Shown here: piece after piece, positions 1-17,627 of the stretch | How positions within the stretch are numbered: position 1 is the stretch's first letter | Layout: every line of letters starts with the position of its first letter | Virus record (IMG/VR): IMGVR_UViG_3300008117_000584 | Coordinates: 1 to 27,183 of that record | Reading direction: 5' to 3' (one strand) | Length of the DNA stretch: 27,183 nucleotides | DNA from: a virus | Position numbers and translations under genes: made by a program | Notes under the pieces: model-generated | Database searches by the model: none | What the model saw: the letters and a program-made list of their open reading frames with translations, nothing else | What the model was told of the DNA's origin: nothing

Positions 1-6
1 TGCCAT

Positions 7-98
7 GCGACTCAGATAAAAAATATTTTAAATCCCACCATTACCGCATTGCCATAAGCACAATCGTGCACTGGGTCGCCTTTGTGTGTAGTGGTGGG
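7..98 (+). ncRNA. Pseudoknotted leader RNA element, copy 1
   Basis: Seen directly: GCGACTCAG (7-15) pairs with CTGGGTCGC (71-79), 9 bp with one T-G wobble. CCCACCATTAC (34-44) pairs with GTAGTGGTGGG (88-98), 11 bp with one wobble. The two helices cross, giving an H-type pseudoknot. A small hairpin, GCAC-AATC-GTGC (58-69), sits between the second helix's 5' strand and the first helix's 3' strand. The single-stranded parts ATTTTAAAT (25-33), GCATTGCCA (46-54) and CTTTG (80-84) are nearly identical in copy 2 at 2351-2440, while the helices differ in sequence but keep pairing. It ends 19 nt before the ATG at 118, so it is probably the 5' leader of the helicase-methyltransferase gene. I do not recognise the class. 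Confidence 0.78.
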
Positions 99-117
99 TT
101 TTTTTAAACACAAACCA

Positions 118-2337
118 ATGGAGTATTTAGAATTTATTCAATCAAAACAAAAGAACACCACTAAGAGTGGATTTGAAATCCAAGACGATGCATTAAATCA
201 GAATCTTTTTGCGTTTCAAAAGTTTATTGTAAAGCGAGCATTGCACGCAGGCAAGTATGCAATCTTTGCTGATTGTGGATTGGGCAAAACATTAATGCAG
301 CTTGAATGGGCGAATCAAGTAGTTCATCATACTAATCAACCAGTACTAATCCTTGCACCTTTAGCTGTATCCGGTCAAACGATTAAGGAAGGTGAAAAGT
401 TTAATATCAAAGTATGGAAGTGGATAGATAACAATAAAGCTATATCTGAAGATTACCACTCAGGCATACCACGCATTTGGATTACGAATTACGAGCAGCT
501 TGAAAATATAGATTGTTCTATCTTTTCGGGAGTAGTATTAGATGAAAGTAGTATATTAAAGAACTTTACTGGAGTTTACAAAAATCTAATCATTGAAAAG
601 TTTTTCAATAAAAGATACAAATTAGCTTGTACTGCTACACCTGCGCCTAATGATCTTAATGAGATAGGAAATCACGCAGAGTTTTTAGATGTTATGGATG
701 CAAACGATATGCGCATGCGTTGGTTTGTGCGTGATGAAGGCATGAATATTTATCGATTGAAAGGACATGCCGAAGCTGATTTTTATGCATGGATATCATC
801 ATGGGCATCTGTATTGCGCAGTCCAAGCGATATTAGTTTTTCATCTGATGGTTATAACCTTCCACCTCTTAACTATTTTGAAAAGCAAATAGTAACCGAA
901 AAAAAGAACAACGGCCAATTGTTTAATGAAACAAGCGTAAATGCTACTGAATTCAATAGAGAGTTAAAGCTTACAATAATACCACGCATGGATAATGTTG
1001 CCGGTATTGTAAACAATTCAAAAGAGGCATTTATTATTTGGGTTAATCAAAACGATGAAGAAGAATATATAATGAATCTTATTCCTGATGCCGTTGCTGT
1101 ACGTGGTAGTGAATCGCCGAGTGCAAAAGAAAAAAAACTGTTAGGCTTTGCAAAAGGTGAGTTTCGTGTATTGGTTACAAAAAAGAAGATTGCTCAATTT
1201 GGTTTAAATTATCAGCATTGCCGAAATCAAATCTTTGCCTCACTTGATTTTAGCTTTGAAGGTTTATATCAGGCAATACGCCGTAGTTATCGTTTTGGCC
1301 AAAAGAATGAGGTTAATGTATGGTTAATTACAACTGATACTATGACGAATGTTATTGAGTCAATTAATTTTAAACAAAATCAATTTAATGAAATGATGCA
1401 AAAAATCACAACAAGCGTAAACGAAAAGACGTACGGTTTAAAAGTAGATTACAATCGTAGAGAAGTAAAGACAGATTCATATCAAATTATCAACGGCGAT
1501 AGCTGTGAGCTAATACGAGAAGTAGCATCTAACTCAATGGATTTATCTGTGTTCAGTCCACCATTTAGTACGCTGTTTACATATTCAGATAACATTCGGG
1601 ACATGGGGAATTGCGTATCTGATGAAGAGTTTTTTGAACAAACTAATTTTCTATTAAAGGAATTATATCGCATAATGAAACCAGGCAGACTTGTTTGCGT
1701 TCACACTAAAGATTTGGCACGCTATAAAAACAGCTCTGGCTTTTCAGGCATGTGGGATTTTACTGGAGAATATCATCGTGCAATGGAAAAGGCAGGATTT
1801 AAATATCACTCTAAAGTTACTATTTGGATAGATCCAGTACTTGAAATGCAAAGAACAAAAACGCAAAGACTTTTGTATAAACAAGTGACTAGCGATTCAA
1901 GTTATACTGGAATTGGTATGCCTGAATATATTACTATATTTCGTAAATGGGAGGGCAATGAAGATGAGTGGACACCAATAACAAATAAAACAAAACAAAA
2001 CTTTGATTTGAACACTTGGCAAAAGTGGGCAAGTCCGGTTTGGATGGATATCAAGCGTACCAATGTTTTGAATAATTACAAAGGCGCAAAAAATGAAAAG
2101 GATGAAAAACATATATGCCCATTGCAATTGGATATAATTGAAAGATGCATTGCTCTTTGGAGTAACAAAGGCGAAACGGTATTTACTCCATTTTTAGGAA
2201 TTGGCAGTGAGGTCTTTCAAGCTGTTAAGATGAATCGTAAAGGCGTAGGATTTGAATTAAAAGAGAGTTACTTTGATTTAGCAAAACGCAACTTGGCATC
2301 TGTTGTTGAAGAAAAGAATCAGATATCACTTTTCTAA
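118..2337 (+). CDS. SNF2/DEAD-like helicase fused to DNA methyltransferase
   Basis: A 739-residue fusion predicted to act on DNA. The N-terminal half is a superfamily 2 ATPase: Walker A GLGKT (residues 54-58), LDESS in place of DEAH (141-145), CTATP (171-175) and motif VI QAIRRSYRFGQ (385-395). The C-terminal half is a SAM-dependent amino-methyltransferase with FSPPF (motif IV, near 479-483) before TPFLGIGSE (SAM-binding motif I, near 690-700), the beta-class order of N4-cytosine or N6-adenine enzymes. No nuclease domain is visible, so it is not a complete restriction system; protective phage DNA modification is the likely role. A longer frame opens at a TTG at 82, inside the upstream RNA element, so I chose the ATG at 118. 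It is more AT-rich than the genes after 3400. Confidence 0.85.
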   Translation: MEYLEFIQSKQKNTTKSGFEIQDDALNQNLFAFQKFIVKRALHAGKYAIFADCGLGKTLMQLEWANQVVHHTNQPVLILAPLAVSGQTIKEGEKFNIKVWKWIDNNKAISEDYHSGIPRIWITNYEQLENIDCSIFSGVVLDESSILKNFTGVYKNLIIEKFFNKRYKLACTATPAPNDLNEIGNHAEFLDVMDANDMRMRWFVRDEGMNIYRLKGHAEADFYAWISSWASVLRSPSDISFSSDGYNLPPLNYFEKQIVTEKKNNGQLFNETSVNATEFNRELKLTIIPRMDNVAGIVNNSKEAFIIWVNQNDEEEYIMNLIPDAVAVRGSESPSAKEKKLLGFAKGEFRVLVTKKKIAQFGLNYQHCRNQIFASLDFSFEGLYQAIRRSYRFGQKNEVNVWLITTDTMTNVIESINFKQNQFNEMMQKITTSVNEKTYGLKVDYNRREVKTDSYQIINGDSCELIREVASNSMDLSVFSPPFSTLFTYSDNIRDMGNCVSDEEFFEQTNFLLKELYRIMKPGRLVCVHTKDLARYKNSSGFSGMWDFTGEYHRAMEKAGFKYHSKVTIWIDPVLEMQRTKTQRLLYKQVTSDSSYTGIGMPEYITIFRKWEGNEDEWTPITNKTKQNFDLNTWQKWASPVWMDIKRTNVLNNYKGAKNEKDEKHICPLQLDIIERCIALWSNKGETVFTPFLGIGSEVFQAVKMNRKGVGFELKESYFDLAKRNLASVVEEKNQISLF

Positions 2338-2338
2338 T

Positions 2339-2346
2339 TATCTTTG
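2339..2346 (+). promoter_or_regulatory. Promoter -7 element, TAnnTTTG type
   Basis: TATCTTTG is an exact match to the Bacteroidota -7 consensus TAnnTTTG and begins two bases after the methyltransferase stop codon. Transcription would start near 2350-2353, which is the first base of RNA element copy 2. No TTG is present at the usual -33 spacing, so the promoter may be weak or activator-dependent. Confidence 0.45.
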
Positions 2347-2350
2347 TAAA

Positions 2351-2440
2351 GCGTACCCTAATGAAAACATTTTAAATCCCATCTTCACTGCATTGCCACA
2401 GCCATTCGGCTTAGGGTACGCCTTTGCATGTGAAGGTGGG
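2351..2440 (+). ncRNA. Pseudoknotted leader RNA element, copy 2
   Basis: Second copy of the element at 7-98. GCGTACCCTAA (2351-2361) pairs perfectly with TTAGGGTACGC (2411-2421), 11 bp. CCCATCTTCAC (2378-2388) pairs with GTGAAGGTGGG (2430-2440), 11 bp with one wobble. The helices cross as in copy 1, with inner hairpin GCC-ATTC-GGC (2401-2410). Conserved unpaired parts are ATTTTAAAT (2369-2377), GCATTGCCA (2390-2398) and CTTTG (2422-2426). In the second helix, two base pairs change on both sides relative to copy 1 (A-T to T-A, T-A to C-G) and two others change through wobble. The 3' strand contains AAGGTGGG, purine-rich and 12 nt before the ATG at 2453, so folding could hide the ribosome binding site. 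Confidence 0.8.
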
Positions 2441-2452
2441 TATTTAGTTTCT

Positions 2453-2677
2453 ATGAATCAAAGTCATATTGGTATTTCCTTTCTTAATGGTCAACATGCC
2501 CGTGGTTGTGTGGTAGTAAAAGATAACCATGGTGTTGTATTGCAAGTGTTGCGTTATGAAGAGGGCAAAGTAAAATCAGCAACTTTTACTTTAGATCTAA
2601 AGCAACAAATAGCATTACGTGATTACTTGAGTGAATCAATATTTATGCAAGCAACTGAAACAAATGAAAACGAATAA
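2453..2677 (+). CDS. Small protein of unknown function downstream of the RNA element
   Basis: A 74-residue soluble protein I do not recognise. It shows a beta-rich pattern in its first half (IGISF, GCVVVKDNHGVVLQVLRYEEG) and an acidic C-terminus. The open frame runs back to 2303, but that would cover RNA element copy 2 and the end of the methyltransferase, so I chose the ATG at 2453, 12 nt after the element. Its last 14 bases overlap the replication initiator start at 2664, so the two are probably translationally coupled. Placement suggests an early gene controlled with the initiator by the leader RNA. Confidence 0.6.
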   Translation: MNQSHIGISFLNGQHARGCVVVKDNHGVVLQVLRYEEGKVKSATFTLDLKQQIALRDYLSESIFMQATETNENE

Positions 2678-3473
2678 TGGCTATTCATATTCACGGGCAT
2701 GGTTTGACTATGCCTTTGAACATCCGGAACATGTTACTGCTTCACATGGTATCTTGTACTTATGGCTTGTTGAGATAAACAACCGTTTGGGTTGGGTAGA
2801 TATATTCCAAATCACAGCCAGCGAATGCATGCAGGGTATGGGCTGCAAAAGCTATAACACATACAAGAAGTGTTTTGACCAACTGGTTGAATGGGGGTTT
2901 GTTAAGGTTGTAAAGAAAGCAGTCAATCAACATCAATGCAACATAATTGCTCTATCAAAATTTGACAAAGCACTTAATAAAGCACTTGACAAAGCACTGC
3001 AAAAGCACTTGACAAAGCAAAGTGAAAGCACTGTACAAAGCAATGTTGAAATCAACTGCGACATTCATAAACAAGTAAACCATAAACCACAAACCATAAA
3101 CAATAAACGGGGTGTTTTCACACCACCAACCGAAAACGATATTTATAATTTGATGGGTGAGTTGAATATGAAATCAGGTGGTAAGTGGCCAGAATCCAAA
3201 ATTGTTTCTGAAAGTAAAAATTGTTTTGACCACTACACAAGCACTGGATGGAAAACCACCGGGGGGGCGCGAATTGTTTCTTGGGAAGCGACCATTCGCA
3301 AGTGGATGAACAATGCGTTTAAATTTGAACAAAATCAAAAATCAAATACTTATGGAAAACCAACTACAACAGCAGACCATATTGCAAAAGCTGAACAACT
3401 TTTCCGCGATGCAGTCGCTATCAGTCACGCACGCGATAAAGCAAGACAAGATAGCGGTACTACGGAAGCTTGA
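2664..3473 (+). CDS. Phage replication initiation protein
   Basis: A 269-residue protein with the layout of phage replication initiators. The N-terminal part (residues about 10-105) looks like a winged-helix domain (ITASECMQGMGCKSYNTYKKCFDQLVEWGFVKVV). A low-complexity Lys/Gln/Ser linker follows, with repeated KAL units encoded by the iteron-like DNA at 2961-3042. The C-terminal domain carries the GWKTTGG...SWEATIRKWMNN pattern seen at the end of many DnaD/O-like phage initiators. The frame extends to 2631, but the ATG at 2664, overlapping the previous stop region by 14 bases, fits the start better. It would bind the origin and recruit the host or phage replisome. Family assignment comes from motif recognition only. 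Confidence 0.7.
   Translation: MKTNNGYSYSRAWFDYAFEHPEHVTASHGILYLWLVEINNRLGWVDIFQITASECMQGMGCKSYNTYKKCFDQLVEWGFVKVVKKAVNQHQCNIIALSKFDKALNKALDKALQKHLTKQSESTVQSNVEINCDIHKQVNHKPQTINNKRGVFTPPTENDIYNLMGELNMKSGGKWPESKIVSESKNCFDHYTSTGWKTTGGARIVSWEATIRKWMNNAFKFEQNQKSNTYGKPTTTADHIAKAEQLFRDAVAISHARDKARQDSGTTEA
2961..3042 (+). repeat. Iteron-like direct repeats, candidate replication origin
   Basis: AAAGCA occurs seven times, starting at 2967, 2979, 2991, 3002, 3014, 3025 and 3037, spaced 11 or 12 bp. Several copies extend to TTGACAAAGCACT. This is about one helical turn per repeat. It is followed by an A-rich stretch with repeated ATAAAC (about 3068-3110) that could be a melting region. Iterons inside the initiator's own gene are known for lambda-type origins. 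The repeat also encodes the KAL-rich linker, so coding constraint is the alternative explanation. Confidence 0.5.
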
Positions 3474-17393: not shown

Positions 17394-17526
17394 GAGTACA
17401 ACCAAGACACCTTACTCACACAAAGTGAGTGCAAGACTAACAGACAAACAGCTAAAGGCAGTACAAAGAGCAGCAAAGACTAACAAGATGACAGTTGCTG
17501 AATACATCCGCGCTTGCATCTTGTGA
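17392..17526 (+). CDS. Ribbon-helix-helix DNA-binding protein
   Basis: A 44-residue protein, shorter than most gene finders report. After a basic N-terminus it reads KVSARLTDKQLKAVQRAAKT and then NKMTVAEYIRACIL: one beta strand (VSARLT), helix 1 (DKQLKAVQRAAKTN) and helix 2 beginning with a T-V-A-E cap. This is the Arc/MetJ/CopG ribbon-helix-helix plan. Such dimers bind short operators through the strand. It is the only rightward gene in the leftward virion block, with its own promoter before it and a terminator after it, so it probably regulates transcription, perhaps blocking or timing the late operon. Support is motif and context; no close family named. Confidence 0.7.
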   Translation: MSTTKTPYSHKVSARLTDKQLKAVQRAAKTNKMTVAEYIRACIL

Positions 17527-17546
17527 TTGTTTATTGGATTAGGGTT

Positions 17547-17581
17547 AAAAAAAGAAGGGCCACGTTTGGCCCTTTCTTTTT
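17547..17581. terminator. Bidirectional intrinsic terminator
   Basis: AAGGGCCA (17555-17562) pairs with TGGCCCTT (17567-17574) around CGTT, flanked by an A-run on the left and TCTTTTT on the right. It ends the rightward RHH gene and, in the other direction, the leftward gene at 17628. Confidence 0.75.
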
Positions 17582-17627
17582 AACACTTTATACCTAAATC
17601 TATTATAAATTAACCAAGTCAAAAATA

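Follow-up and report, generated by a model that had tools for sequence, protein, structure and literature searches.

A fold that occurs twice in the same stretch of viral DNA raises the question of whether it is a working RNA and, if so, what it does for the genes beside it. Such a pair lies at positions 7–98 and 2351–2440 of the IMG/VR virus record IMGVR_UViG_3300008117_000584, analysed here over its whole length of 27,183 bases (the window) and encoding terminase and portal genes. A first-pass annotation had described two copies of a pseudoknotted RNA element with shared unpaired blocks and covarying stems, the mark of a functional RNA, and had matched it to no named class. On comparative sequence evidence, the element is genuine and represents an RNA family not listed before. 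It is best read as a mobile promoter-plus-5′-leader cassette of Bacteroidota phages, which would give an RNA of about 92 nucleotides (nt) and stands ahead of genes from no fewer than 11 unrelated families. The first description lacked the promoter fused to the element, the constant spacing to the start codon, an AUG within the leader, the mobility of the cassette and an extension of helix 2 by 3 base pairs (bp).

Both copies were placed at exactly these positions by the covariance model R1, built from relatives of the element (93.8 and 92.1 bits); the third-best match in the window reached only 12.7 bits (E 0.27). Relatives were collected from IMG/VR with one pattern on two conserved blocks, which matched 109 stretches, and a second on the 3′ half alone, blind to loop 1, which matched at least 118. 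After deduplication, at least 77 distinct relatives (cores) remained, and since this count rests on the at least 118 matches listed, the breadth of the family is a lower bound. Loci gathered by similarity of the downstream protein, with no RNA criterion, yielded more members, including the divergent L217 and L221 (69–71 bits). In all 77 distinct cores, helix 1 keeps 9 of 9 pairs, in 16 sequence versions, and helix 2 keeps 11 of 11, in 14 versions. An alignment of 21 distinct rows, gap-free and covering 27 pairs, had 99.8% of cells paired, compared with 27–48% when partners were slid by 1–3 columns. Changes on both sides occurred at 16 of the 27 pairs, carried by 101 cells, and the covariation score was reached by none of 500 shuffles, a result that is no P value because the rows are mutually related. 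Both the slid controls and the variety of helix versions place the element beyond reasonable doubt, and chance is excluded by the 77 fully paired distinct relatives together with the shuffle and slide controls. As helices 1 and 2 cross and covary, both are under selection. The earlier claim that the covarying stems mark a functional RNA thus stood, and its own reservation, that further covarying homologues might be lacking, was removed by the many found in IMG/VR. The element is very probably a functional, structured 5′ leader.

From 5′ to 3′, the layout consists of a −7 promoter box, 4 nt, the 5′ strand of helix 1, loop 1 (18–21 nt, with AUGAAA), the 5′ strand of helix 2 and the block ATTGCCA, followed by a small hairpin, the 3′ strand of helix 1, the linker CTTT, the 3′ strand of helix 2, a short A/U-rich spacer and the start codon (Table 1). 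The helix sequences, their crossing arrangement and the inner hairpin were as first annotated, and the H-type topology, from hairpin loop to outside, holds. Helix 2 had been given 11 bp; these pairs are all kept, but its true length is 14 bp with one bulged U. The three additional pairs, formed by the first three bases of C/T-GC with G-Y-R right behind CTTT, covary and are kept in 77 of 77 elements. This leaves ATTGCCA and CTTT as the only conserved blocks that are truly unpaired, whereas parts of GCATTGCCA and of CTTTG, listed as unpaired before, belong to helix 2. The block ATTTTAAAT had also been named as shared and conserved, which failed as strict conservation across the relatives; near-universal are AAAT ahead of CCC and AUGAAA near helix 1. 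The nested fold drawn by an ordinary folding program contains helix 2 alone, the stronger of the two, and helix 1 is known from covariation.

In agreement with the first-pass annotation, no named class could be assigned: Rfam 15 gave nothing across copy 1 or copy 2 when the window was searched at a permissive threshold (E up to 5) and no match at 14 related loci (E up to 0.5). A distant BLASTN search with copy 2 against 50,697 phage records was without a match, and model R1 at full sensitivity detected no element in the first 12 kilobases of Flavobacterium phage 11b. In GTDB genomes, the core pattern matched 58 stretches that look like chance matches, because none of the 58 has the 3′ half of the element. 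Two matches to a pattern tolerating a helix 2 without the GGTGGG end were both due to chance. Nothing recognisable as the element occurred in the Bacteroidetes and phage keyword passages of broad comparative structured-RNA screens (supplementary tables not searched). The element is a new RNA family within a known kind, the structured cis-acting mRNA leader.

In 115 of 116 elements, helix 1 is preceded at a distance of exactly 4 nt by a Bacteroidota −7 box (TAHHTTTG); the remaining element has CACATTTG at this site. With base 1 of helix 1 counted as +1, T−12, A−11, T−8, T−7, T−6 and G−5 are invariant or nearly so over 15 dissimilar upstream sequences, and TTTGG is present near −33. The same six positions, with 4–5 nt to the start site, characterise the promoter of Flavobacterium johnsoniae according to ribosome profiling and RNA-seq (PMC6847099). 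Given the fixed 4-nt gap between box and helix 1, transcription is expected to start at the first G of this helix, and base 1 of this helix is the presumed transcription start. A stacked arrangement of the helices is likely in view of the CTTT linker, and the 5′ end would then sit at the helix junction. A sigma-70 promoter scan, a type of scan unsuited to Bacteroidota, gave nothing at the element.

The genes on either side all run in the same direction and come from 11 unrelated families behind the element (replication-type, methyltransferases, a GIY-YIG-like nuclease and small proteins of unknown function) and from 8 families ahead of it. In most members of 9 of the 11 downstream families, the ATG follows the end of helix 2 after 10–12 nt (11±1). 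Comparison of contigs revealed 266 pairs that share the upstream flank and not the downstream one, 321 that share the downstream and not the upstream one, and 84 that share both; in 30 pairs, an identical core lies between unrelated flanks. Homology breaks off at the borders of the cassette, on one side or on both. Such a mosaic of flanks around identical cores is the trace expected of a moving cassette or of a recombination linker. Nearly all of 41 related records have one copy, and some with the helicase-methyltransferase gene have two, flanking that gene.

Contigs were often found to begin or end within the element (window positions 1–6; L039/L021, L125/L127, L126, L148 and L151). Sharing of the cassette among co-occurring phages would produce this pattern by causing branches in the assembly graphs. 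From locus coordinates, one record was deduced to carry an identical stretch of 127 bases at its two ends. In L015 and five relatives, the gene behind the element encodes 96 amino acids with a weak match to phage endonuclease families and a GIY-YIG-like start; speculatively, a nuclease directly behind the cassette might aid its spread.

The promoter type and the terminase suggest a host among the Bacteroidota, the closest named phage judged by terminase being Flavobacterium phage 11b (48% identity). The genes behind the two copies are listed in Table 1 together with the next gene of the run, which is of unknown function and, by its position, may be replication-initiator-like. Elsewhere in the window, the intergenic positions 17523–17614 gave sub-threshold matches to BTncRNA_FopS on both strands (27–29 bits, cut-off 56), and this region is probably a terminator-like hairpin.

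Table 1. Positions of the two element copies, their parts and the adjoining genes in the window
Feature	Position	Strand	Details
Copy 1 promoter remnant	1–6	+	last TG of −7 box and 4-nt spacer; rest lost at contig end
Copy 1 of pseudoknot element	7–98	+	model R1, 93.8 bits, E 5.9e-20
Copy 1 helix 1, 5′ strand	7–15	+	GCGACTCAG; partner 71–79
Copy 1 loop 1	16–33	+	ATAAAAAATATTTTAAAT in place of the ATGAAA of nearly all relatives; start codon lost
Copy 1 helix 2, 5′ strand	34–47	+	CCCACCATTACCGC; partners 84–86 and 88–98
Copy 1 invariant unpaired block	48–54	+	ATTGCCA
Copy 1 inner hairpin (helix 3)	58–69	+	GCAC/GTGC
Copy 1 helix 1, 3′ strand	71–79	+	CTGGGTCGC
Copy 1 linker	80–83	+	CTTT
Copy 1 helix 2, 3′ strand	84–98	+	bulged T at 87
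Gene behind copy 1	118–2337	+	SNF2-type helicase fused to N6/N4 DNA methyltransferase; Pfam PF00176, PF01555; PHROG 16 and 67
Copy 2 −7 box	2339–2346	+	TATCTTTG; −12 to −5 relative to helix 1; consensus positions from PMC6847099
Copy 2 of pseudoknot element	2351–2440	+	model R1, 92.1 bits, E 1.4e-19
Copy 2 helix 1, 5′ strand	2351–2361	+	GCGTACCCTAA; partner 2411–2421; only outer 9 pairs family-wide
Copy 2 leader frame, out of register	2361–2375	+	ATG AAA ACA TTT TAA (MKTF-stop)
Copy 2 helix 2, 5′ strand	2378–2391	+	CCCATCTTCACTGC
Copy 2 invariant unpaired block	2392–2398	+	ATTGCCA
Copy 2 inner hairpin	2400–2411	+	AGCC/GGCT
Copy 2 helix 1, 3′ strand	2413–2421	+	AGGGTACGC; preceding TT lengthens helix to 11 bp
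Copy 2 helix 2, 3′ strand	2426–2440	+	GCA, bulged T at 2429, GTGAAGGTGGG
Gene behind copy 2	2453–2677	+	74-amino-acid protein of unknown function; ATG 12 nt past helix 2
Next gene in run	2664–3473	+	PHROG 15768; kin of commonest family directly behind element elsewhere

As to what the element does, the reading favoured here, held tentatively and at somewhat less than even confidence, is that of a promoter cassette whose pseudoknot gates translation and may be opened by ribosomes on the leader frame. In F. johnsoniae, mRNAs are without a Shine-Dalgarno sequence and show a tendency to be unpaired between about −20 and +20, which is somewhat stronger in genes with high translation (PMC6847099). 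Given these unpaired initiation regions, a 14-bp helix that ends at about −12 should matter for initiation. While the RNA emerges from RNA polymerase, helix 1 would close its own 5′ end first, and the 3′ strand of helix 2 would then pair back into the loop. The folded knot would hold the RNA between about −12 and about −26 of the gene in paired form, at the place of 30S binding in a non-Shine-Dalgarno host, and could set or gate translation initiation. Translation from the AUG of loop 1 would carry a ribosome across the 5′ strand of helix 2 and thereby unfold the knot, so that the gene would be coupled to leader translation. The cassette would confer one promoter and one translational setting on whatever gene lies behind it.

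Leader translation is plausible from what is conserved in loop 1, where AUGAAA is present in 77 of 77 distinct relatives though the bases behind it vary (20 loop forms). In the typical frame, ATG AAA AAC ATT TTA AAT CCC ATC TTC ACT GCA TTG CCA TAG, the conserved blocks double as codons. A 13-codon frame with the stop in place was found in 60 of 78 forms, and in three divergent members (L139, L140 and L217, read by eye) it continues as far as the main start codon. In copy 2, the NP..ALP frame is uninterrupted from one end of the element to the other and shares the register of the 74-amino-acid gene (window 2303–2677), the loop AUG being out of frame; it stays open because the usual TAG behind CCA is CAG.

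Several observations weigh against translational gating of this kind. Of 78 forms, 11, copy 2 among them, have a lost or shifted leader frame, and copy 1 has ATA in place of the AUG. Positions 3–5 of the peptide vary freely, and ATTGCC is without silent variation except for CCA/CCG, from which it follows that the peptide sequence itself is not conserved. A conserved leader peptide (MKxxLNPxxTALP followed by a stop) was considered as a candidate and was weakened by these variable residues, by the 11 shifted frames and by the fact that both window copies are broken. It looks as if the start codon is selected and the peptide is not. The link between an intact frame and an in-place stop is weak (Fisher p 0.043, uncorrected for relatedness), and the spacer length could be partly inherited along with the cassette.

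Other explanations account for parts of the same picture. The 5′ triphosphate could be buried in a helix that blocks 5′-end-dependent decay, resulting in a long-lived early phage mRNA. RppH and RNase E favour single-stranded 5′ ends (PMC3997798), and helix 1 starts at the presumed +1 with an invariant G-C pair that leaves no free 5′ nucleotide. However, a plain hairpin would be enough for such a shield, which is rather unlikely also in that the near-constant distance of about 11 nt between helix 2 and the AUG, the invariant ATTGCCA and CTTT blocks and the AUG of loop 1 are left unexplained. Invariant unpaired blocks inside variable helices would suit a protein operator, with a phage or host protein binding the knot at ATTGCCA and CTTT and repressing or activating all carrier genes, for which gp32 and gene 32 of T4/RB69 set a precedent (PMC535899). 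As the downstream genes are unrelated, simple autoregulation is excluded; an operator would require a hypothetical shared trans factor, and this role is considered unlikely.

Copy 1 has GGTGGG followed by TTTTTTT, long T runs occur in a few relatives, and terminator-like leaders stand ahead of related genes in other phages, which would fit a transcription attenuator, where helix 2 and a U-rich stretch pause or terminate RNA polymerase and leader translation relieves the block. Most members, however, have TATTTAG, a poor U-tract, and attenuation appears improbable. A metabolite riboswitch would agree with a pseudoknot from hairpin loop to outside, an extra hairpin and conserved loops directly upstream of a start codon, the knot binding a small molecule and masking the initiation region, as is the case for preQ1-II and SAM-II. 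It is quite improbable, as the Rfam searches gave no riboswitch match and no metabolite is common to the downstream genes. That the element marks mosaic junctions, and that some contigs begin and end within it, could also reflect a DNA-level site for recombination or a repeat arising in assembly, with no RNA role at all. This is very improbable, since neither crossing helices with G-U pairs and compensatory changes nor the strand-locked promoter and start-codon spacing would be explained.

Among known systems, the PeSL mobile regulatory cassettes of T4-type phages, consisting of a promoter and a stem-loop/terminator (as named in the titles of Arbiol 2010 and Comeau 2014, cited in PMC4503421), are similar in that a promoter is joined to a structured element, spread in phage genomes and located at gene-shuffling junctions. 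An early promoter adjoining a stem-loop is present here by analogy and not by homology, with 'early' deduced from the genes, and the location at junctions of shuffled genes is borne out by the contig flanks. The element differs in having TAHHTTTG instead of the T4-type early consensus, in belonging to a phage that is not T4-type (nearest Flavobacterium phage 11b) and in a covarying pseudoknot that would form the 5′ end of the mRNA and stops 11 nt ahead of the AUG. In T4 and RB69, the gene 32 operator is also a phage pseudoknot located in a 5′ leader, with a knot of about 28 nt, UUAAA repeats downstream, one gene and autogenous repression by gp32 (PMC535899). In contrast, the element has a larger knot, unrelated genes, no UUAAA repeats and spacers of only about 11 nt, and no SSB annotation was found among the downstream families in Pfam and PHROG annotations.

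The preQ1-II riboswitch (RF01054) has the same pseudoknot from hairpin loop to outside with an additional hairpin beside the initiation region and is located upstream of queT/COG4708 in Bacillota (PMC11625349), whereas the element has no RF01054 match, occurs in another phylum and precedes genes other than queT/COG4708. With SAM-II and SAM-II long loops (RF01726, Bacteroidetes/marine), it has in common that H-type pseudoknot leaders are reported from Bacteroidetes, but there is no SAM-II model match (E up to 5), the linker after helix 1 has only 4 nt and SAM genes are absent. Stabilising 5′-terminal stem-loops of the ompA type keep the 5′ end in a helix from +1, as is presumed here, and are unlike the element in its pseudoknot, leader AUG and start-codon spacing. 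In the control of repZ of plasmid ColIb-P9, an antisense-RNA system, a leader frame is essential and a pseudoknot lies just upstream of the controlled start; both are found in the element, in which, unlike in repZ, the leader frame is only partly conserved. HDV-like ribozymes have a similar strand order and were rejected as a candidate, given a loop 1 of 18–21 nt, a helix 2 of 11–14 bp and no P1.1-like element in the RNA described here.

A second, unrelated kind of knotted leader precedes related genes in L241, L274, L283, L288, L290, L293 and L242, lying roughly 130 nt ahead of the protein match. Here, the 7–8-nt loop of the first hairpin is complementary to a segment within a second, outer stem, and a T run often follows immediately ahead of the ATG. 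From locus to locus, the loop pairs change without losing complementarity (GTAGTGAG/CTCACTAC, GTGGTAGT/GCTACCAC, GTCTCAG/CTGAGAC, GTCGCAC/GTGCGAC, GTATCCG/CGGATAC and GTGCGAG/CTCGCAC), and these leaders matched neither Rfam (E up to 0.5) nor model R1. In L280, L281 and L284, inverted repeats with T runs (12–13 bp in L281 and L284) lie directly upstream of related genes. It is conceivable, though doubtful, that Bacteroidota phages have built several knotted 'start modules' independently, of which the element is one. These would dock on the 30S subunit where a Shine-Dalgarno helix would otherwise lie and would travel as promoter-plus-RNA cassettes. If so, start modules would give phage genes an advantage like that of an internal ribosome entry site in non-Shine-Dalgarno hosts, and the unrelated kissing-loop leaders (L241, L283, L288, L290, L293 and L242) would serve the same purpose in other ways.

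The finding adds a well-supported RNA family that Rfam does not contain; covariation in its two crossing helices is unusually strong, and the family is tied to a promoter and a start codon. It offers a tractable system for phage translation control in Bacteroidota, where Shine-Dalgarno sequences are naturally missing from mRNAs, and an RNA-based counterpart to the gene-shuffling PeSL cassettes of T4-type phages. As a defined expression part for Bacteroidota, the promoter-leader module may likewise be useful.

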